Assembly: GCA_019670725.1 (NCBI GenBank)
Contig: AP024629.1
Location: forward strand, 2,852,001-2,916,000
Length of the DNA: 64,000 nt
Reading direction: 5' to 3'
From: Alphaproteobacteria bacterium SO-S41
GTDB taxonomy: Bacteria; Pseudomonadota; Alphaproteobacteria; Micropepsales; Micropepsaceae
Made by a program: the position numbers and the translations under genes. Under the pieces are notes generated by a model, which was given only the letters and a program-made list of their open reading frames with translations, was not told the origin of the DNA and did no database searches. Positions 28,541 through 40,559 of the stretch are shown one piece after another; the first letter of the stretch is position 1, and every line of letters begins with the position of its first letter.

Positions 28541-28903
28541 TCAGCTCCTCAGGATCTTCGCCATCGGGCGGCCCTTGGCGAGTTCGTCGATGAGTTTGTC
28601 GAGGATGCGGATCTCGCGCATCACGGGCTGCTCGATAGTCTCGATGCGCACGCCGCAGACGACGCCGGTGACGCCGGCGCGCAGCGGGTTCAACCCCGGC
28701 GCGGCCTGAAAGAAGTCCTCGAAGCTCGTGCCTTTCTTGAATTCCGCATCCAGCGTCTTCTGCGTATGGCCGGTTAGCCAGCGGAAGATCTCGTCGACCT
28801 CAGCCTTGGTGCGGCCCTTCTTCTCGGCCTTGGCGAGATAGGCGGGATACACCTTGCCGACGGCCATGTCGTAAATGCGGTGCCTGGTGGTGGTGGCTTT
28901 CAC
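28541..28903 (-). CDS. DUF2200 family protein
   Basis: The 120-residue protein matches the DUF2200 pattern: [65 protein letters not shown] and a terminal [11 protein letters not shown]. Function is unknown. It is first in the operon with the YCII and GST genes. Confidence 0.85.
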
Positions 28904-29041: not shown

Positions 29042-30982
29042 GTGAGCCAGCCGGTGTTCGTCAGCTATGCCACGGCCGACCGCGCGCAGGCGCTGGCGGT
29101 GTGCGAGGCGATCGAGGCGCGCGGCATTGCCTGCTGGATCGCCACCCGCGACGTTGCGCCGGGCGAGAACTACCAGGAAGCGATCGTCCAGTCGCTGCGC
29201 GCCGCGCGCGCGATGGTGCTGGTGTTCTCCGCGGCCGCCAATGACAGCGACGAGATCAAGAAGGAGCTCTCGCTCGCCAGCCGCTTCCGCGTGCCGGTCA
29301 TGGCGCTCAGGATCGAGGACGTCGAACCGAGCGACGCCTTCGCCTACGAGCTGTCGACGCGCCAGTGGATCAACGCGTTCGAGGGGTGGGACCGCGCGAT
29401 CGACGCGCTGGCCGCCCGCATCGAACAGATCGCCGGCGCGGCGCCGACCCCTGCGCGCGGCCGCTCCGCCAAGGCTTTCTCACTGCGGCGTCCGATGGCG
29501 ATCGCCGCGGCCGGCTTGGCCGTCCTGTCGATTGCTGGCGCGGCGTGGTGGGGACTTCAGTCGCCCTCCCCCTCCCCCGCCCCCGAGGCGCAGGCGGCGC
29601 ACTCCATGACGGTGCGCCTGGCGGGGTTCCAGCTCCTCTCCGCCGACCTGCCGGCCACCGTGCCCGCCACGGTGGATGCCGAGATCGCGGCGGCGTTCAA
29701 TGCGGACGGCGTGGTGGGCGTCTCCACCGCACCCGCCCCGGCGCCGGGCGAGGCGCCGGCCTATGCGCTGGGCGGGACGATCCAGCGCGACGGCGACATG
29801 ATCCGCGTCATCACCCGCCTGACCAACGAGCGCTCCGGCACAACGATCTGGACCGACAGCTTCAACTATGACGGCAACGAGGTGTCGCGCGTGCCGCGCC
29901 GCATCGCGGTGGACGCCGGCAATGTCGTGCGCTGCGGCCTGTTCGGCGCCTCCACCTATCACGCGCCGCTGCCCGATTCCGTGCTCAAGGACTACATGCA
30001 GTTCTGCCAGGGGCATTGGGACACGAGGCTGAAAGAGGGGCGCAAGGCGCTGTTGCCGGCGCAACGGGTCGTTGCCGCCGTGCCCGACTTCTCGTGGGGC
30101 TGGGCGGCGGTCGCCGGCGGCTACTGGAAGGTGTCCTACAGCGCCGAGACGCCTGAGGCCGTGGATGCGGCGCGCGCAGCGGGGCGCGAGGCGGCCGACC
30201 GCGCGGTGGAGATCGACCCCAAGAACAGCGAGGCGTTCTACATCAAGGCCATGCTGGTCGATCGCCAGGATTGGGGCACGCGGGAGGCGCTGTTCAAGCG
30301 CGCCGTCGCCGCCCAGCGGCTGGATTGCGGCTGCGAGTATCATCAATACGGCTGGCTGCTGGTGAATGTCGGCCGGGTCAACGAGGGCGTGGAACGCCTG
30401 CGCCAGGCCAGCGACATGCTCGCGCTCTATTTGTATACGGCGCTCAATCTGGCGGATGCGCTGGTCGTCGCGCGGCACCTTGAGGAGGCGGCGCGCGTGT
30501 ACGACGCGGCCATCGACCTGGCGCCCGATGCCGCCTATGCGGCGCGGATCAAATCGTGGAAGGCCACCCGGATCTGGGACGCAGCGGCGTTGCGCGATCC
30601 CCAAGTGGCACTCCCGCCAGAGCTGCGCGCCGCCCTGGTGAAGGGGTATGACGCCCTGACCTCGGGCGAGGCCGGCGCCAAGGCCGAAGCCGTGCAGGCC
30701 CTGCTGGCCCTCCCGCAGGATCAGCAGGGCGAAGCCGCCACGCGGCTGCTCGCCTCGCTCGGCGCCACCCGCGAAGCGTTCCAGATGGCGACCCCGCTGG
30801 TCGCCAAGGCCTATCCCGGACCGACGCTCTTCTGGCATCCCAGCATGCGCGCCACCTTGGACGATCCAGGCTTCCCTGCGCTGGCGGAGAAACTAGGCCT
30901 CATGAAATACTGGAAGGCGACGGGGACCAGGCCGGATGTCTGCAACGAGGCGACCCCGCCGGCGTTTTGCGGGATGATCTAG
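29042..30982 (+). CDS. TIR domain, transmembrane helix and TPR protein
   Basis: The start is a GTG at 29042 with GAGGGGGAG 5 bases upstream, giving 646 residues. The TIR domain (about 1-135) opens QPVFVSYATADRAQALAVCE and has CWIATRDVAPGENYQEAI and MVLVFSAAANDSDEIKKEL; the Glu of KKEL is at the usual NADase position. One membrane helix lies near 151-171, followed by a Pro-rich linker, a domain with GGTIQRDGDMIRVITRLT, and TPR-like helices at about 340-520. This TIR-TM-TPR layout is found in alphaproteobacteria. The role is unknown; signalling or defence are both possible. A paralogue stump lies at 31922. Confidence 0.8.
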   Translation: MSQPVFVSYATADRAQALAVCEAIEARGIACWIATRDVAPGENYQEAIVQSLRAARAMVLVFSAAANDSDEIKKELSLASRFRVPVMALRIEDVEPSDAFAYELSTRQWINAFEGWDRAIDALAARIEQIAGAAPTPARGRSAKAFSLRRPMAIAAAGLAVLSIAGAAWWGLQSPSPSPAPEAQAAHSMTVRLAGFQLLSADLPATVPATVDAEIAAAFNADGVVGVSTAPAPAPGEAPAYALGGTIQRDGDMIRVITRLTNERSGTTIWTDSFNYDGNEVSRVPRRIAVDAGNVVRCGLFGASTYHAPLPDSVLKDYMQFCQGHWDTRLKEGRKALLPAQRVVAAVPDFSWGWAAVAGGYWKVSYSAETPEAVDAARAAGREAADRAVEIDPKNSEAFYIKAMLVDRQDWGTREALFKRAVAAQRLDCGCEYHQYGWLLVNVGRVNEGVERLRQASDMLALYLYTALNLADALVVARHLEEAARVYDAAIDLAPDAAYAARIKSWKATRIWDAAALRDPQVALPPELRAALVKGYDALTSGEAGAKAEAVQALLALPQDQQGEAATRLLASLGATREAFQMATPLVAKAYPGPTLFWHPSMRATLDDPGFPALAEKLGLMKYWKATGTRPDVCNEATPPAFCGMI

Positions 30983-31477
30983 GCGGCGCGGCTGGGTCCG
31001 CTGCGGGGTGGATTTGATCCTGGAATTTTTTACCCCTCCCCCTCCCCCTCCCCCTCCTCCCTCGGCGCGCAACAAAATTTTGCGGCTCCGGCGAAGAGCA
31101 TCTTCGTTTGTCACCGATGTCCGCGCGCCTAGCGTGACGCAAACGGAAGCGGCGGACAGCGAAGCCATTCGAACGTCGTTATGTGCCCTATCCCCTCTGG
31201 CCGTGCGGTATTCGAACGTCGCTTTTCGCGCCTTGTTTGAGCCGCCAATCCGCGCCGTACGGGCGCGGCCGCGCGCAGCGCATTCGAACCTCGATTGCGA
31301 GAGATCATTTCGGCCCACCCGTCTCTCCTTCCCGCCTCACGCACGCCTGAGCGCGCGACACCGCCGCCGGCGCGGCGATCGCACCGCCCGGCACGGAAAG
31401 CTATATAGGATTTTTCACCTATATACAAGGATTATGTTCAGCCGCGTGGCGGGCCGGTGGCGGCCCGGCCGGCAGGC
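30983..31477. other. Intergenic region after the TIR gene
   Basis: No convincing gene is present in these 495 bases. They contain copy B of the composite repeat (31005-31114), three copies of ATTCGAAC[GC]TCG (about 31168, 31209 and 31282), and an AT-rich TATAGG...CCTATA inverted repeat at about 31402-31424. The same kinds of element occur in the same order around copy A at 5.5-5.9 kb. Confidence 0.55.
31005..31114 (-). repeat. Composite intergenic repeat, copy B
   Basis: Read on the minus strand it opens GTGACAAACGAAGATGCT and ends AAAAAATTCCAGGATCAA followed by CCACCCC, matching copy A at 5763-5863. The middle here has a CAAAATTTTG palindrome and an expanded G/A-rich tract (runs of GGGGGA). 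It abuts the stop codon of the TIR gene. Confidence 0.7.
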
Positions 31478-31921: not shown

Positions 31922-32047
31922 TGCGCGGACGATCCGGGATTCCCGCAACTGGCGGAACAGCTCGGCCTCATGACGTACTGGAAGGCGATGGGGATGAGTC
32001 GGATGTGCAGCGAGGCGGCACCGCCGCCGTTTTGCGGGATGCTTTAG
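31922..32047 (+). pseudogene. C-terminal remnant of a second TIR-TPR gene
   Basis: The frame ends at TAG 32045-32047 and encodes about 41 residues, including DDPGFPQLAEQLGLMTYWKA and a CGML end. The intact gene ends DDPGFPALAEKLGLMKYWKA and CGMI, so about two-thirds of the residues are identical and the DNA matches along the whole stump. There is no start or upstream domain. A tandem duplicate lost everything but its 3' end, with the DGPF gene now occupying the space. Confidence 0.85.
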
Positions 32048-32177
32048 GGGGCGGTGTCACAACGGGAACCTATGCCAGCATCTGGCCAGCTACCGTGCGT
32101 GTCCCAATTAATCAAACACGTATGAAAAAGACTGACGGCAACGGACCAAACGCCTTGATCAAGTCGTGCGAAAAAAG

Positions 32178-33380
32178 TTACTCAAACGCGATGTCGCTTC
32201 TGAAGACACCACCGTAAGAAATCGAACGAGACCGGACACCTTTGCTCGTGACCAATCCATCGGATTTCACATATGCGTCAATCTTGTCTTCAACGCGTTT
32301 TCGCGCCAAATTATCGTCAGACCTTAGCTCTCGAACCAACTCACGCTTCACGCCCTGGCGAATTTTTATACTTGAAACACCATAGACTTCTCTCAATTCA
32401 GGTACTTTGAGCGTAGTTATTTTGCCAAGAAAAATTTCTCCGTTCAACTCGAATTGCCTCAAAGGAACCTCATCCAACTGATCCTTAGCTCGAGATGATC
32501 TATATTTCGTATCTATACGTAATGCAGCACGTTCGCTTGGTAAAAGTAAGTCGACGACACCTAGCCCTTGTTTAAGATCTTCCTCCGAAGGCAGCGCCAG
32601 TTCGGTGGCCAAACGACTGAAGCCGATCACTCCAAGCGACCTAGCGACAGACAGCCGACGCGCGTACTTGACGGTGTCGTCCTGCGCGCGGCCGTCAAGC
32701 TTTAGTAGAGGCTCTTCGTCGGGGTCTGGGTCAACTATTCGGAGTTGCGATCGGCGGCGATCATTTTCATGCGAGATGGCAAGACCGGCGCCAAGTCTCT
32801 GACCTCGCATCCGTCCCACTATATCAATTACGGATTTTTGCTGGATGGCTCTCTGCAAAAATCCATTGCGTGCACTGCGACCAGATTGCGTGCCTTTACA
32901 CTCCAAGACGTGCCACCTTCCGTTGGAGTCTAGAGCAACGTAGTCCGGTGCCTTGCTCGGCCCAACCTTCCTAGCCCCCCTCGGCATTCGCCGCATCATC
33001 CCGGCGAACTGCAGCATGAACTTTCTTCCATCGACCAAGTCTACGAACCCGCCAAGACGGTCCGATAACCACTGAGTGGACATCGCCACACCAAAGTCGT
33101 CACTCAAAATTCCTTTCTGATGTGGGTCCAAGTCTGAAAATGGCATAGTGATCCGGAAGTCCCGCGTAGTATGCAGGGCGACAAAATAGCGGACCCAGGC
33201 CCAAAATCTTGCTGGGGAGGACAACGATCCAGCGGCGGGAGTTGTGACGGAGCCAAGCAGCAACAGAGCTGCGGGGATATCGATTAGTTGCTGCCCAGCA
33301 CCACTTCGTATAAAGGCGGGGGCGGCCTTCGTCGGCCAAGTTGCCTCATCGATAACAACGTCCAAGTTCTTTTCAAACAT
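32178..33380 (-). CDS. PD-(D/E)XK nuclease-like protein, uncharacterised
   Basis: I chose the ATG at 33380 with AGGTG 9 bases upstream, giving 400 residues; an in-frame GTG at 33392 is also possible. The centre carries APDYVAL (Asp146) followed by WHVLECKG (Glu160, Lys162), the D-x(n)-E-x-K core of restriction-type nucleases, then a helix with LQRAIQQK. The N-terminal 130 and C-terminal 200 residues are unfamiliar. Base composition is visibly more AT-rich than the flanks. It is divergent from a Shedu-like gene, which suggests a phage-defence role. The family was not identified. Confidence 0.6.
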   Translation of the reverse strand: MFEKNLDVVIDEATWPTKAAPAFIRSGAGQQLIDIPAALLLLGSVTTPAAGSLSSPARFWAWVRYFVALHTTRDFRITMPFSDLDPHQKGILSDDFGVAMSTQWLSDRLGGFVDLVDGRKFMLQFAGMMRRMPRGARKVGPSKAPDYVALDSNGRWHVLECKGTQSGRSARNGFLQRAIQQKSVIDIVGRMRGQRLGAGLAISHENDRRRSQLRIVDPDPDEEPLLKLDGRAQDDTVKYARRLSVARSLGVIGFSRLATELALPSEEDLKQGLGVVDLLLPSERAALRIDTKYRSSRAKDQLDEVPLRQFELNGEIFLGKITTLKVPELREVYGVSSIKIRQGVKRELVRELRSDDNLARKRVEDKIDAYVKSDGLVTSKGVRSRSISYGGVFRSDIAFE

Positions 33381-33542
33381 TGTAATCGTCACCTAGTATC
33401 GATGCCGGCGCACCTATATCGGGGCAAAATCTTTCCTATCAAGCATAAAATCGTCCAAACATTGCGTCAGCAGGTCGCATTGCCATAAATATAAATACAC
33501 TCAAAGCTTCTCGGAATTCAGGCCAAGGAGCTCCAAGATTGA

Positions 33543-34784
33543 ATGTTCGAGTTCGTCGTCACCCCTATCGGTGCTACTGTCAAATATACTCCTGACATTC
33601 AGGGTCCTGCATGGATAAAAAGCGAGTTGAGCAAGCACGGCTCAATTACCATAAGCCGTGTCTTCAGTTTCCTCGCTGATGATGTCGTCAGCGAACCTGA
33701 TGGCGATCCGTTTGAAGAAAATGCAGAATATGAATTTCGCTTTGCCACAATAATTGGCGAATACCTTAAAATAGAAGGGCGTATATTTGGAATTATTCCC
33801 AATATTTTCCTTCATAAAAACATTCCACTATCAAGAAAACTATTTGCCGCAGAACGAAATGTGTCGATTTTTTTACGAATCTCAAAGATATTGAACTCGA
33901 CAGATGACATAATTATCGGCGGCGACCATCCGAGTGCTATTCCGTACGCTGAATTTGAGAACCTTTTAAAGAAATTTCCAAATACACTTGAATTGGATAG
34001 GTACGCTAACGCACGAGTTGCGGATATTTTAGGAGACTATCTGGATAATATGAAGGACGCACGTCGCGTATATGAAGATTATTTATCTAAAACTAGAGCT
34101 TTTATCAAAGAAAACCCTCTTCGTCAGGAAGAATTACTGCACCTTGAGGTTCATAAATATAAACTGATTCGCAAGACCATTACTGGCTGGCTCACCTCAG
34201 GCGCCAATCGTTCTGAGAGTGACTGGCAAAACATGATCTTACAATTTATACTCCTAATATTCCCGAAGTACGTTGCCGTTCTACGGAACGTTAAAATAAA
34301 TGACTATTATACATCGCCGGGATCAGTTCATCATCGATACATAGATATAGCGCTAATTGACGCATCCGGAAATATCGACCTAATAGAAATAAAAAAACCT
34401 ACTCTTGATATGCTCTTAGGTAAGACGATCTATAGAGGAAATAGTGTCCCAAGCAGGGTTCTGACCTACACGGTTATGCAAGCAGAAAAATATCTCTTTC
34501 ATTTGAATAAATGGGGGATAAAAGGGGAAGAGCTACTAACAAAGAAGTACAGGTCCGCGCTACCATCCGATCTTAAGATTCGCATAACCAGCCCCAAATC
34601 AATCGTTATTCTGGGCAGAGACCGGCTTCCATCAGGAGACCCTGCGTTCGATGAAAATCAAGGGTTTGATTTCGATGTAATAAAACGAAAATACTCAAAC
34701 CTTATAGACATAATGAGCTATGATGATTTGCTTAGGCGTTTAGATAACATCATTGCATCCCTAGAAACTCGCGCTGAAGGGTAA
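33543..34784 (+). CDS. Shedu-like (SduA/DUF4263) immune nuclease
   Basis: The product is 413 residues and strongly AT-rich, unlike the chromosome around it. The C-terminal nuclease region begins ESDWQNMILQFILLIFPKY and has RYIDIALID (Asp268) and LIEIKKPT (Glu282, Lys284), the DUF4263 arrangement of the Shedu anti-phage system. The first ~220 residues would be the variable sensor part. Shedu normally works as a single gene. AAGGAG lies 12 bases before the ATG. It was probably acquired by transfer together with the divergent nuclease-like gene. Confidence 0.72.
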   Translation: MFEFVVTPIGATVKYTPDIQGPAWIKSELSKHGSITISRVFSFLADDVVSEPDGDPFEENAEYEFRFATIIGEYLKIEGRIFGIIPNIFLHKNIPLSRKLFAAERNVSIFLRISKILNSTDDIIIGGDHPSAIPYAEFENLLKKFPNTLELDRYANARVADILGDYLDNMKDARRVYEDYLSKTRAFIKENPLRQEELLHLEVHKYKLIRKTITGWLTSGANRSESDWQNMILQFILLIFPKYVAVLRNVKINDYYTSPGSVHHRYIDIALIDASGNIDLIEIKKPTLDMLLGKTIYRGNSVPSRVLTYTVMQAEKYLFHLNKWGIKGEELLTKKYRSALPSDLKIRITSPKSIVILGRDRLPSGDPAFDENQGFDFDVIKRKYSNLIDIMSYDDLLRRLDNIIASLETRAEG

Positions 34785-34871
34785 ATTATTTAGATATTTA
34801 TTCCTCGTGCTAATATGGATATTACCGAATTTCGGCAGTAGCTTTCCTCTACACTGTAAAAATGCTTTCCC

Positions 34872-36434
34872 TCACTCCCACTCAATCGTCCCCGGCGGCT
34901 TGGACGTCACGTCGTAGACCACCCGGTTGATGCCCCGCACCTCGTTCACAATGCGGGTCGCGGCGCGGCCGAGGAAGGTCATGTCGAAGGGGAAGAAGTC
35001 GGCGGTCATGCCGTCGGTGCTGGTGACGGCGCGGAGGGCGCAGACCTGGTCGTAGGTGCGGCCGTCGCCCATCACGCCCACGGTGCGGACGGGCAGGAGC
35101 ACGGCGAAGGCCTGCCAGATCGTGTCGTAGAGGCCGGCCTTGCGGATCTCGTCGAGATAGATGGCGTCGGCCTGGCGCAGGATGTCGAGCTTTTCCCGTG
35201 AGACGCCGCCGGGGAGGCGGATGGCGAGGCCCGGTCCCGGGAAGGGGTGGCGGCCGACAAAGGCGGCGGGCAGGCCCAGCTCGCGGCCGAGGGCGCGGAC
35301 CTCGTCCTTGAAGAGCTCGCGCAGGGGCTCGACCAGTTTCAGCTTCATCCGCTCGGGCAGGCCGCCGACATTGTGGTGGCTCTTGATGGTGACCGAGGGG
35401 CCGCCGGAGAAGGAGACGCTCTCGATCACGTCGGGATAGAGCGTGCCCTGGGCGAGGAAGGCGGGGGCGCCTTTGCCGTCCGCGGCGATCTTGTGCGCCT
35501 CGGCGTCGAAGATCTCGATGAAGAGGCGGCCGATCGTCTTGCGCTTGGTCTCGGGGTCGGCCTCGCCCTCCAGCGCAGTGATGAAGGTGTCGGCGGCGTC
35601 CACGTGGACGAGCGGGATGTTGTAGTGGTCGCGGAACAGCGAGACGACCTCGTCGGCCTCGTTGAGGCGCATGAGACCGTGATCGACGAAGACGCAGGTG
35701 AGCTGGTCGCCGATCGCCTCGTGGATCAGCACGGCGGTGACCGCGCTGTCGACGCCGCCGGAGAGACCGCAGATGACGCGTTCGGTGCCGACCTGCGCGC
35801 GGATCTTGGCGATCATCTGGTCGCGATAGGCGGACATGGTCCAGTCGGGCGTGAGGCCGGCGATGTTCAGGACGAAATTGGCGAGCAGCTTGCCGCCGTC
35901 GGGCGTGTGGACGACCTCGGGGTGGAACATGGTGGTGTAGATGCGGCGGGCCTCGTTCGCGGCGATGGCGAAGGGCGCGTTCTCGGACGTGCCGATGACC
36001 TCAAAGCCCTCGGGCAGCTGCGTGACGCGGTCGCCGTGGCTCATCCAGACGGGGTAGCGCTGGCCCACCTGCCAGATGCCGGCGAAGAGCGGGCTCTCTT
36101 TCAGGATCTCCACATCGGCGCGGCCGAACTCGGCGGCGTGGCCGCCCTCGACGGTGCCGCCCAGCTGCAGCGCCGTCACCTGCTGGCCGTAGCAGATGGC
36201 GAGGATCGGCAGGCCCGCCTCGTAGATCGCCTGGGGCGCGCGGGGTGAGTTCTCGGTCGTGACCGAGGCCGGCCCGCCGGAGAGGATGACGGCCTGGGGC
36301 TTCAGCCGGGCGAAGGCGGCTTCGGCGGACTGGAAGGGGTGGATTTCGCAGTAGACGCCGATCTCGCGCACGCGGCGGGCGATGAGCTGCGTAACCTGGC
36401 TGCCGAAGTCGATGATGAGGACGGTCTGGGACAT
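34872..36434 (-). CDS. guaA: GMP synthase (glutamine-hydrolysing)
   Basis: GuaA aminates XMP to GMP. The protein is 520 residues, the normal length. The glutaminase domain has the nucleophile in AICYGQQV and a later FHPEV. The ATP-pyrophosphatase P-loop is [10 protein letters not shown]. The dimerisation domain ends PPGTIEWE, intact at the 3' end next to the AT-rich island. guaA 3' ends are known insertion hot spots for genomic islands. guaB lies about 9 kb away on the same strand. Confidence 0.98.
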
Positions 36435-36537: not shown

Positions 36538-37644
36538 ATGCTCCGCTCGGATCTCTTCCGCGACGTTTCCCGGCTGCAGAGCGCGGCGCGCAATGCCCCG
36601 CCGGTCAGCGGGCGCGAGCACACTTACGGCGTCTCGGCGCTGCAGGCGGGGCTGTTGCGGCTCGGCTACAAGCTGCCTGTCTCGACCCGGAGGCACGGCG
36701 CGCCGGACGGGATCTACGGTGATGAAACGCGCGGCGCGGTGCAGACCTTCCAGGCGAGGGCGCGGCTGAAGATCGACGGGATCGCCGGGCACGATACGCT
36801 GCATGCGATCGACGCGCTGCTGCCGGCGACCATCCCGCCCGCCCCGCCGCCAAAGCCGAATCCCAAACCCAATCCCAACCCAAACCCCAACCCGCCACCG
36901 GCCCCGGCGCCCAAGCCGCACCGCATCCCGCCGCCCATCGAGCCCGGCGGCCGCGCCCTGCCCTTCAACGACGACTACGAGGAAGGCACCGCCGCGCCGC
37001 CGCTGACCCATGACAAGGGCGCGGGCGCGTGGAACTCGAAGCCCGCCACGCTCACGACCCAGGCGGCGATCATCTTCATCAACGGCCCGCAAAGCGTGCA
37101 GTTCTGGGCTGCGGCGCTGGCGGTGGCGGGGCCGCATGCGGTGCTGAACCTCAAGCACTACTTCGCCAATACCGGCACCGCGCTGACGATCGACTACGCG
37201 GCGATGCGCAAATCCGGTTTCAGCGCCGGCCGCGCTTTCGGTATCGAACTCACCCGGATCGCCCGCTACATCGACACATGCCCTCCCGGGCGCTGGCAAA
37301 TTCGTTCCAAGGCCCTGCACCGCAACGATTTCACCTACAACTACAAAGACGAAAGCCGCGACTGGTACTACGCCGTCGGCGGCTACAGTCTGTGGGCGAC
37401 GGCAGCGTGCACGGTCGAGCCGGATGGGCGCATCTCGGCCGACGTCACCGTGCATTTCTACGACCGCTACAACTGGGACAAGGGCAAGGGCGTCGACATC
37501 CTGGGCATCCCGATCACCGACGTGTCGATGGCCGCGTTCCATCAGCAGGGCAAGGCGCGCGAGTACGACATGTTCGGCCAGCAGGGGCAGCAGATCGCGT
37601 GGACGAAGGGCTCGCCCCCGCGGTTCGACACCTTCAAGCACTAG
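36538..37644 (+). CDS. PGB-domain protein with unknown C-terminal domain (paralogue A), no signal peptide
   Basis: The product is 368 residues. Residues 1-20 (LRSDLFRDVSRLQSAARNAPP) form a module shared with the next gene and the gene at 39990. A PG_binding_1 repeat follows to about 100 (VSALQAGLLRLGYKLP...DGIYGDETRGAVQTFQ), then a Pro/Asn-rich linker. The C-terminal domain has DKGAGAWNS, LKHYF, YIDTCPPGRW, a DWYYAVGGYSLW segment and FYDRYNWDKGK...ITD. I do not recognise it with confidence; DUF6402 is a faint possibility. No signal peptide is present, so export by a dedicated system would be needed. It heads a four-gene same-strand set. Confidence 0.65.
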   Translation: MLRSDLFRDVSRLQSAARNAPPVSGREHTYGVSALQAGLLRLGYKLPVSTRRHGAPDGIYGDETRGAVQTFQARARLKIDGIAGHDTLHAIDALLPATIPPAPPPKPNPKPNPNPNPNPPPAPAPKPHRIPPPIEPGGRALPFNDDYEEGTAAPPLTHDKGAGAWNSKPATLTTQAAIIFINGPQSVQFWAAALAVAGPHAVLNLKHYFANTGTALTIDYAAMRKSGFSAGRAFGIELTRIARYIDTCPPGRWQIRSKALHRNDFTYNYKDESRDWYYAVGGYSLWATAACTVEPDGRISADVTVHFYDRYNWDKGKGVDILGIPITDVSMAAFHQQGKAREYDMFGQQGQQIAWTKGSPPRFDTFKH

Positions 37645-37753
37645 GCCGAGCGTTCGGAGCGGCGGCGCCGGGAAGCTGCGGCAAGGTGCGCCTTGCGCGT
37701 GCAGCGGCGCGCCAGAACACTTGAGCCGGGGAAACCGTCGCGTGGGGGAAGCG

Positions 37754-38893
37754 ATGCTGCGGTCCAAGATGTTTCGCGGAATCGAGCGCCTGGACGACGC
37801 GGCGCACAACAATCCGCCCTTCGCCTGGGGCGAGACCGGGCTCGGGGTCGCCATCCTCCAGGCCGGGCTGATCGCCCTCGGCTACAAACTGCCCAAGTCG
37901 GTCAAGAAGAAGACACGCGCGCCGGACGGCGTGCTGGGCGACGAGACCTTCCTGGCCGTGAAGGCGTTTCAGACCGCGCACAAGCTGAAGCCCGACGGGA
38001 TCGCGGGGCGCAAGACCATCCGCGCCATGGACGCCGAACTGCCGCCCCCTGCCCCCTCGGTCGTCGTGAAACCGCCCAGGCCCAAGGGCCCGCCCAGGCG
38101 GCCGAAACCCGTCGGCGACAAACCGCCCCCGCCGCAAAAACTGGGTCCCCCGCCGCCGGTCGGCGACAAGCCGCCGGAGCCGCAGCCTTTGGTGATGCTG
38201 CCGGAGTCCGACTACTACTGCGAAGGCACGGACGATCCGATCCCCAAGCCCGACAAGGGCGCGGGCGCGTGGAACTCGGCGCCGCTGACGCTGCGCTCCG
38301 CCGCCATCAAGATCGCGATCAGCACCTCGCCGGGGTTCTATGGTGCGACGCTGATCGGCATCGGCCCCAATGCCACCAAGCACCTCGTGCATTATTTCGG
38401 CGGCTCGGGCCGCGACTACAAGATCGACCTCGAAGGCATGTTCCAGGACAACGCCTATGTCCGCACCAACGTGCTCGATTTCGAACTGGCCTGCATGGCG
38501 GACTATATCGACGCCTGCCCGCCGGGGACGTGGAACATCACGACCAAGAAGGTGATCCAGAACGACCACACCTATAACGGCAAGGACGACAGCAAGGACT
38601 GGTATTTCGCGATCGGCGGCTTCGGCGTGTGGACGAAAGCCAAAGCGCGCGTGCCCAAACGCGGCAAGGTGCTCGCCGATATCGAGCTGAAATTCTTCGA
38701 CCGCTACAATTGGGACGGCGGCAAGAAGGTGCACATCGCCGGCATCGAGATCACCGACGAGTTCATGGGCGACTTCCACCGCGAGGGTCTGGCGAAGGAG
38801 TTCAACTGCTTCGGCTCGCTGAAGCGCAAGATGAGCTGGGAGCGCTTCAGCCGCGTACCGCCCGCGCCGCCGCCGCCGGGGGTCGCCTACTAG
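37754..38893 (+). CDS. PGB-domain protein with unknown C-terminal domain (paralogue B), no signal peptide
   Basis: The ATG at 37754 follows GGGGGAA and gives 379 residues. The protein is paralogous along its length with the preceding gene. Shared parts are the LRSKMFRGIERLDDAAHNNPP module, a PGB repeat (DGVLGDETFLAVKAFQTAHKLKPDGIAG), a Pro/Lys-rich linker, and the C-terminal domain with DKGAGAWNS, LVHYFGGSG, YIDACPPGTW, DWYFAIGGFGVW and FFDRYNWDGGKKV...ITDEFMGDFH. Conserved His, Asp, Tyr and Trp residues suggest an active or binding site, but none is proven. No signal peptide is visible. Confidence 0.65.
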   Translation: MLRSKMFRGIERLDDAAHNNPPFAWGETGLGVAILQAGLIALGYKLPKSVKKKTRAPDGVLGDETFLAVKAFQTAHKLKPDGIAGRKTIRAMDAELPPPAPSVVVKPPRPKGPPRRPKPVGDKPPPPQKLGPPPPVGDKPPEPQPLVMLPESDYYCEGTDDPIPKPDKGAGAWNSAPLTLRSAAIKIAISTSPGFYGATLIGIGPNATKHLVHYFGGSGRDYKIDLEGMFQDNAYVRTNVLDFELACMADYIDACPPGTWNITTKKVIQNDHTYNGKDDSKDWYFAIGGFGVWTKAKARVPKRGKVLADIELKFFDRYNWDGGKKVHIAGIEITDEFMGDFHREGLAKEFNCFGSLKRKMSWERFSRVPPAPPPPGVAY

Positions 38894-38969
38894 CAAGAAA
38901 GTTCGCCGGCCCTTGGCCGGTCCCGCCCGTCCTTTCCGTATTCCGGACGATGGGACGGAGACGGCTGAC

Positions 38970-39977
38970 ATGGCGTTGAAATTTCTGGGCGACGATGGCG
39001 GGCGCAAGGGCTTCGATTTCCGCAACGGCTTTGCCTACCAGATGGTGCCGGCCGGCGGCGCGACCCGGTCGCTGGGCATCATGACCGATCACAGCGACTG
39101 GATCATGGCGCCCAACACCGACAAGGCGGACGACGGCACGCCGCTGAGCGGGCCGCAGACCTTCGCGATCGCCAAGCTGTCGCCCGAAACCGAAGCGCTG
39201 GGCGGTGCGGGCGATACGTTCCGCCTGCCCGCCAACACGCCCGCCCGGTTCCGCTTCACCGGCGGGATGGCGGGGCAGTTCGAATACAAGCTGCAGCCCG
39301 TGAACAAGCACACAGCGCCGGTGCGGCTGAAGATCAGCGTGCTGCCCCGGGTGGCGATCCAGTATCACGCCTTCGTCCTCAAATCCGACGCCAAGCTGTT
39401 CGCGAGCGTCAACACCGACGAGATGATCAAGCAGTTCGAGACGGCCGAGGCCGCCTACAAGGACCAGTGCAATGTCGATCTCCAACGTCAGGGCGATGCC
39501 GGCCACCGGGGCCGCATCACGCCGCTGCGCAGCAATTTCAACCTCGGCTCGCCGATCATCCTCAGCGAGATGTGGGAACGGCTGAAGGTCGAGATCGAGT
39601 TGAACCAGCCGCTCGACCAGCAATGGATGCTGAAGGTCATCGCCACCTGGAACGTGATCAGCGGCGAGAAGAAGACGCGCAACAACAAATGGATCGATGA
39701 TGCGGTCGGCGTCGCCTATGTCGGCAATAATGTGTGCTTCTGCCAGTTCGAGCTCGGCCGGCCCGGCGCGCCGCAAGCGCCGGAGTGGACGACGATCGCC
39801 CACGAGATCGGCCACACGATGGGCCTCAAGCATACCGAGAAGGCGAATGCGCACGACAACATCATGTTCAACGGCAACATGGGCGCGGGCGTCAGCAATC
39901 GCTTCACCTGGTACCAGATCGAGAAGCTGAACGGGACATTCGCGCGCAAGCTGCGTCCCGAATGGTTCGACCTTTAG
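38970..39977 (+). CDS. Metzincin-type zinc metallopeptidase, no signal peptide
   Basis: The product is 335 residues from the ATG at 38970. The zinc site is HEIGHTMGLKH (His278, Glu279, His282, His288), and the Met-turn is probably NIMF (Met299), which defines a metzincin such as the astacin, serralysin or matrixin clans. The first ~200 residues are not recognised and may be a substrate or targeting domain. There is no signal peptide, and no RTX repeats or serralysin C-terminus. It is third in the set, between PGB proteins, with the next start 12 bases downstream. Confidence 0.72.
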   Translation: MALKFLGDDGGRKGFDFRNGFAYQMVPAGGATRSLGIMTDHSDWIMAPNTDKADDGTPLSGPQTFAIAKLSPETEALGGAGDTFRLPANTPARFRFTGGMAGQFEYKLQPVNKHTAPVRLKISVLPRVAIQYHAFVLKSDAKLFASVNTDEMIKQFETAEAAYKDQCNVDLQRQGDAGHRGRITPLRSNFNLGSPIILSEMWERLKVEIELNQPLDQQWMLKVIATWNVISGEKKTRNNKWIDDAVGVAYVGNNVCFCQFELGRPGAPQAPEWTTIAHEIGHTMGLKHTEKANAHDNIMFNGNMGAGVSNRFTWYQIEKLNGTFARKLRPEWFDL

Positions 39978-39989
39978 GGGGGATAGAGC

Positions 39990-40559
39990 ATGGCTCTCAA
40001 ATCGCGCCTGTTCGCGGGCAACAAGGCGCTCGAGGCCGCCGCGAAAGACAACGCCGCCCATATCGTGCCGGGCGCGACGGGCGAGCATGTCTCCAAGATC
40101 CAGGGCGCGCTGCAGGCGCTGGACAATGCCAGGATCGTCACCGCCGAACTCGCGCGGCGCAACTACGGGCCGTCCACGGCCGCGGCGGTGCTCGCCTACA
40201 AGACCAAGCGCAACATCATCAACCGCAGCTATCAGCAGAGCGCGGACAACGTCACCGGCATCATGACGCTGGCGCGGATGGATGAAGAACTGGCGGCGGT
40301 TGAGATGCCGATCGCCTATGTCCCGACGCCGATCGCCTGCGGCCGGCCGAACTGCACCTGTGGCGCGGCCACCGGACAATATGAGCCGGCGATGCCGATG
40401 AGCGATGCGGCGATGATCGCCGTGCTGGAACGCAGCCGCTCGCCGGGATCGCAGGCAGCGCTCGCGGCACTGGGCGGCAAGGCCGATCCGAACCGGCCGG
40501 TCGTCGCATCGGCGATGCGACCCCTGCCCGGCCCGCTCGCGGCGTTCCGGCGCGTCTGA
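39990..40559 (+). CDS. PGB-like protein with a short Cys cluster, no signal peptide
   Basis: The product is 189 residues. The N-terminus, ALKSRLFAGNKALEAAAKDN, matches the opening module of the genes at 36538 and 37754. The following PGB-like repeat reads GEHVSKIQGALQALDNARIV...YGPSTAAAVLAYKTKRN...GIMTLARMDEEL. A CGRPNCTCG cluster near residue 113 could bind a metal. The tail is disordered and Pro/Ala-rich. It starts 12 bases after the metzincin stop, so the two are very likely co-transcribed and functionally linked. Confidence 0.6.
   Translation: MALKSRLFAGNKALEAAAKDNAAHIVPGATGEHVSKIQGALQALDNARIVTAELARRNYGPSTAAAVLAYKTKRNIINRSYQQSADNVTGIMTLARMDEELAAVEMPIAYVPTPIACGRPNCTCGAATGQYEPAMPMSDAAMIAVLERSRSPGSQAALAALGGKADPNRPVVASAMRPLPGPLAAFRRV

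Follow-up and report, generated by a model that had tools for sequence, protein, structure and literature searches.

Directly beside the 3' end of guaA, the 64,000 nucleotide stretch of contig AP024629.1 from Alphaproteobacteria bacterium SO-S41 that was analyzed here (the window) carries an AT-rich block of 2.8 kb. This raises the question of what the block encodes, whether it was acquired by horizontal transfer, and whether its genes work together. The reading that we consider probable is that of a small, horizontally acquired defence cassette, located in the slot between the DUF2200 gene and guaA, that combines an SduA of the EcSduA type with ORF1, a likely independent defence nuclease. The features of the region are listed in Table 1.

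Table 1. Features of the DUF2200 to guaA region, in coordinates of the window.
Feature	Position	Strand	Basis or remark
DUF2200 gene, bordering the variable slot on the left	28541..28903	-	Pfam DUF2200 1.4e-45; near guaA in G004 and G005
TIR-TPR gene, host-like composition, same variable interval	29042..30982	+	Pfam TIR_2 8.6e-21; GC3 0.90
Partial repeat of the TIR-TPR gene 3' end, at the left edge of the AT-rich block	31927..32053	+	direct repeats D1, D3
ORF1, unnamed PD-(D/E)xK-like protein, 400 aa	32178..33380	-	relatives, invariant residues, model
Intergenic stretch between the divergent start codons	33381..33542	.	162 bp; both promoters presumed inside; from gene coordinates
SduA, 413 aa, Shedu nuclease of the EcSduA type (type I)	33543..34784	+	Pfam, PADLOC, 8PS4
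guaA, intact, bordering the slot on the right	34872..36434	-	Pfam GMP_synt_C 5.6e-43, GATase 3.7e-40

Across the region from about 32.05 kb to 34.86-34.87 kb, the GC content is reduced to 0.40-0.52, compared to about 0.66 before it, and it rises again to 0.69 at the guaA stop codon; the sharp drop in composition that had been described between the stump of a TIR gene and guaA is thus reproduced. The GC3 values are 0.95 for guaA and 0.90 for both the TIR and the YCII genes, compared to 0.53 for ORF1 and 0.39 for SduA. Because the values for ORF1 and SduA are far below those of guaA and the TIR gene, both genes are foreign in composition, and the block from 32.05 to 34.87 kb is foreign. The GC3 of ORF1 also differs from that of SduA, which suggests separate histories for the two genes. 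The block contains two intact, divergent ORFs. The earlier note had recognized both genes; however, it overlooked the nuclease-like character of ORF1, and its suggestion of a possibly eroded cassette is not supported for the two genes, whose reading frames are intact. In a promoter search of the block, matches were no more numerous than in shuffled sequences.

The left edge of the block was placed at the composition step, which coincides with the end of the copied TIR tail, and the right edge was placed at the guaA stop codon. The TIR-gene stump at the left edge is real: it copies the TIR-TPR gene's 3' end (30859-30988) at 72-85%, is located 1.07 kb downstream of it, and stops at the composition step. 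Similar tails are present on other TPR-type genes of the same genome and genus, and the stump is therefore the end of a lost paralogue.

Comparison of the region downstream of guaA in sister genomes revealed that the block is not kept. In sister genome G004, whose guaA is 94% identical in its C-terminal part, DUF2200 and guaA are separated by 432 bp, versus about 6 kb in the window. The TIR and YCII genes are host-like in composition, and for this reason G004 alone does not fix the edges of the 2.8-kb block. Neither ORF1 nor SduA was found in the four congeners examined, and among the 96 genomes of the order, each species being represented by a single genome, SduA was detected in two and ORF1 in one. 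The earlier note had named conservation of the block at this place in all relatives, with matching codon use, as an outcome that would speak against its reading; the relatives do not show such conservation. That the block is ancestral and has disappeared from the sister genomes, instead of having been inserted in the window, is highly improbable: the sampling of one representative genome per species gives this reading some room, but the strongly foreign composition and the near absence of the block's genes from the order both speak for insertion. In the three genomes in which both flanks are present, the DUF2200 to guaA slot is variable and tends toward defence genes.

Several observations concern the surroundings of this slot. 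In G004, an AT-rich AbiEi/AbiEii pair (L094:9390-11184) adjoins DUF2200 on the side away from guaA. In G005, which belongs to another genus, an Eco29kI-type endonuclease and a C5 methyltransferase (L162:3611-5785) are located between DUF2200 and guaA. On the other side of guaA, the window contains a run of four genes (36538-40559) that, as read from their sequences, are of the peptidoglycan-binding/metalloprotease type; in G002, the interval that separates guaA from the next conserved stretch lacks this run, so that flank varies too. The possibility that the region downstream of guaA is a defence hotspot throughout the family was rejected: the 137 genes downstream of guaA in the relatives matched 17 PADLOC models, and the single AbiE pair in G004 accounted for many of these.

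Islands that integrate at guaA are expected to bring an integrase and to be framed by repeats of the guaA end, and neither feature was found here. No integrase was seen among the ORFs around the block, and a search within 20-60 kb for att-like copies of the guaA 3' end returned a best non-self match of 12 bp, which is at chance level; the earlier note had likewise seen no integrase or clear att repeat. Delivery could have occurred through an island that no longer has its former att site and integrase, or through homologous recombination. In two genomes of the family, the last 27-29 codons of guaA are repeated about 0.8 kb downstream of guaA (L129:9605-9685, L136:8141-8227). Such 3'-end fragments in family relatives are the scars expected from guaA-integrating elements. 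Another family relative also contains a guaA 3'-end fragment apart from the intact gene (G008:C24:161700-161927).

The product of SduA matched the Pfam SduA_C family with an E-value of 2.8e-29 (102.8 bits, against a curated cut-off of 27), and the PADLOC SduA model covered its full length (1.8e-167). The earlier note had named failure of the DUF4263 HMM as an outcome that would speak against its reading; both models instead match strongly. The solved E. coli SduA (8PS4) was matched at 5.1e-124, with 51% identity overall, 49% in the N-terminal part (residues 21-210), which places this part with the N-terminal domain of the EcSduA type, and 53% in the C-terminal part. The residues that had been proposed as the Shedu nuclease core, D268 and E282-x-K284, are numbered exactly and align with catalytic residues of 8PS4: D268, E282, and K284 correspond to D272, E286, and K288. 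In addition, Q313 aligns with Q317. Judged by its sequence, SduA belongs to a known defence family and is unexceptional within it, and for this gene the reading as part of a defence cassette is well supported by the Shedu models and the 8PS4 alignment.

Compared to E. coli SduA (EcSduA, type I Shedu; 8PS4, 8PS5), the likeness extends over the full length, including the N-terminal part, the nuclease domain, and the catalytic D/E/K residues; however, about half of the residues differ, and the window's SduA resides in a chromosomal slot by guaA, next to ORF1, with an activity and target range that are predicted. A relative with 50.6% identity over 93% of the query is the lysogenic conversion protein of Enterobacteria phage P2-EC31. 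This relative is carried by a P2-like phage, whereas the window's SduA has no adjacent phage genes. The settings of SduA relatives comprise plasmids, the P2-like phage record, in which the gene is a lysogenic conversion gene, and a BREX operon. The last is a Shedu gene (L044:5893-7119) within a BREX type 1 operon of a Methylomonas plasmid, with a PDDEXK nuclease gene and pglZ on either side. In the family relative G031, an SduA 54% identical to the window's (L161:8374-9645) is located among genes of the conjugation type, these identities being read from the sequences and not from a model scan.

For the mechanism of Shedu, we rely on PMC12904381 and PMC12137116. Since the N- and C-terminal halves of SduA are both conserved, the EcSduA mechanism is the default expectation. 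By homology, SduA would assemble into a tetramer and use its N-terminal clamp to bind free DNA ends, which linear phage genomes or replication intermediates, for example, provide; the PD-(D/E)xK domain would then nick the DNA at a fixed distance from the bound end, and the cell would be protected from phage. We infer the sensing of DNA ends and the anti-phage activity from this homology.

ORF1 starts with an ATG, and an alternative GTG start at 33392 is possible. Searches with ORF1 against Pfam, PADLOC 2.0.0, NCBIfam, and PHROGs returned no family at E<=1, and 45 of its relatives had no Pfam match below an E-value of 0.03. Against the sequences in the PDB, ORF1 had no match, and the family profile returned matches at chance level only. 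Some 55 relatives were recovered, from eight plasmid records and 49 genome loci; the latter span Proteobacteria, Acidobacteriota (Terriglobia, Bryobacterales), Binataceae, Myxococcales, and Alicyclobacillus. The family is rare: among 387 genomes of the class, it was present in the window's own only. It was not found in phage records, in IMG/VR contigs (scanned with a single sequence), or in E. coli genomes (searched with the DNA of one relative).

In 45 sequences of the family, residues P145, D146, E160, C161, K162, G163, and Q165 (P-D...E-C-K-G-x-Q) are invariant, and a second motif at residues 84-97, LDxHQKxILSDDxG, is mostly invariant. All 45 sequences thus contain the P-D...(D/E)-x-K motif of the PD-(D/E)xK superfamily, and the invariant P-D...E-x-K pattern is, at the level of sequence, the signature of a PD-(D/E)xK nuclease. 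ORF1 is of full length and retains all the invariant residues, and it is therefore not decayed; it is an intact member of a real, conserved family that is unnamed in Pfam, PADLOC, NCBIfam, and PHROGs.

An AlphaFold2 model of ORF1 was confident, with a mean pLDDT of 88 and a pTM of 0.89. Its PD-(D/E)xK-like core comprises residues ~86-225. The matches of the model to PD-(D/E)xK folds are weak (Z 2-3.9, the best being 3.9), and they occupy many rows of the structural list: SPO1766, lambda exonuclease, Hjc, Card1, AdnAB, and E. coli SduA, all of them members of the PD-(D/E)xK superfamily. The C-terminal domain, predicted alone, had a pLDDT of 84 and no clear match to a known fold (best Z 4.4 over 63 residues). 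ORF1 therefore resembles PD-(D/E)xK nucleases in general (lambda exonuclease, archaeal Hjc, Card1, SPO1766) in the P-D...E-x-K pattern and in weak structural similarity; in contrast, it has no sequence match to any of these, and it has its own LDxHQKxILSDDxG motif and a C-terminal domain that lacks a clear known fold.

The relatives of ORF1 are solitary genes. A conserved partner gene beside ORF1 was looked for and rejected, as neighbours are held in common only among near-duplicate loci. We compared the 148 neighbour proteins of ORF1 relatives, counted up to two genes per side, to PADLOC and Pfam. At a threshold of 1e-15, they matched 150 PADLOC models, versus the 17 models matched at the same threshold by the 137 control genes downstream of guaA; these numbers count models, not independent loci, and related models overlap, which makes the contrast a qualitative one. 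The controls were also drawn from other genomes than the test genes. The models included DruA, GajA, AriA, PDC-S06, PDC-S37, and type II methyltransferases, and the Pfam matches included phage integrases and transposases. In annotated plasmid neighbourhoods, ORF1 relatives were accompanied by genes for restriction-modification and for an anti-phage dCTP deaminase, and also by a short Shedu gene of a different kind. This short Shedu gene is located about 5 kb from the ORF1 relative on an Agrobacterium plasmid (L034:129-815 and L034:6001-7221).

The contrast in neighbours fits a solitary gene of defence islands. The plasmid location of some relatives and the integrases and transposases nearby are also what a DNA-processing enzyme of mobile elements, involved in plasmid or island maintenance and travelling with defence genes, would show. 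However, no conserved transfer or replication gene accompanies the relatives, and Druantia, Gabija, and methyltransferase models do occur among their neighbours, which makes this role for ORF1 rather unlikely. ORF1 is a candidate new defence nuclease; most likely, it has a PD-(D/E)xK-like core and is the second single-gene defence nuclease of the block, independent of SduA. Its C-terminal domain may recognize the target or regulate the core. More tentatively, as a possibility of some weight, ORF1 might found an undescribed family of single-gene anti-phage nucleases that occurs at low frequency in Proteobacteria, Acidobacteriota, Myxococcota, and Bacillota, and that combines the PD-(D/E)xK core with a C-terminal recognition domain whose fold is unlike solved structures.

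ORF1 and SduA are divergent, 162 bp apart, and part of the same foreign block, as would be expected if they were one two-component system, with ORF1 serving SduA as partner or regulator and both being expressed from the shared intergenic region. However, SduA was present at none of the ORF1-family loci, and ORF1 at none of the six SduA loci examined, so a conserved pair was rejected. The unequal GC3 values of the two genes (0.53 and 0.39) and the action of EcSduA as a single protein (PMC12904381) also argue against a joint system, which we regard as improbable. In the favored reading of two independent single-gene systems, ORF1 would act as a nuclease against phage in its own right, and SduA would work without it.

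With SduA, a well-studied enzyme gains one more diverged homologue; its presence is unsurprising, but it is useful for the question of how such nucleases spare their own host. The slot between guaA and DUF2200 provides a small natural comparison of the turnover of defence cargo between close relatives. The main value lies with ORF1, an intact and conserved nuclease-like family that falls outside the defence and domain libraries searched, that offers clear residues for mutation, and that is directly testable as a defence system of one gene.
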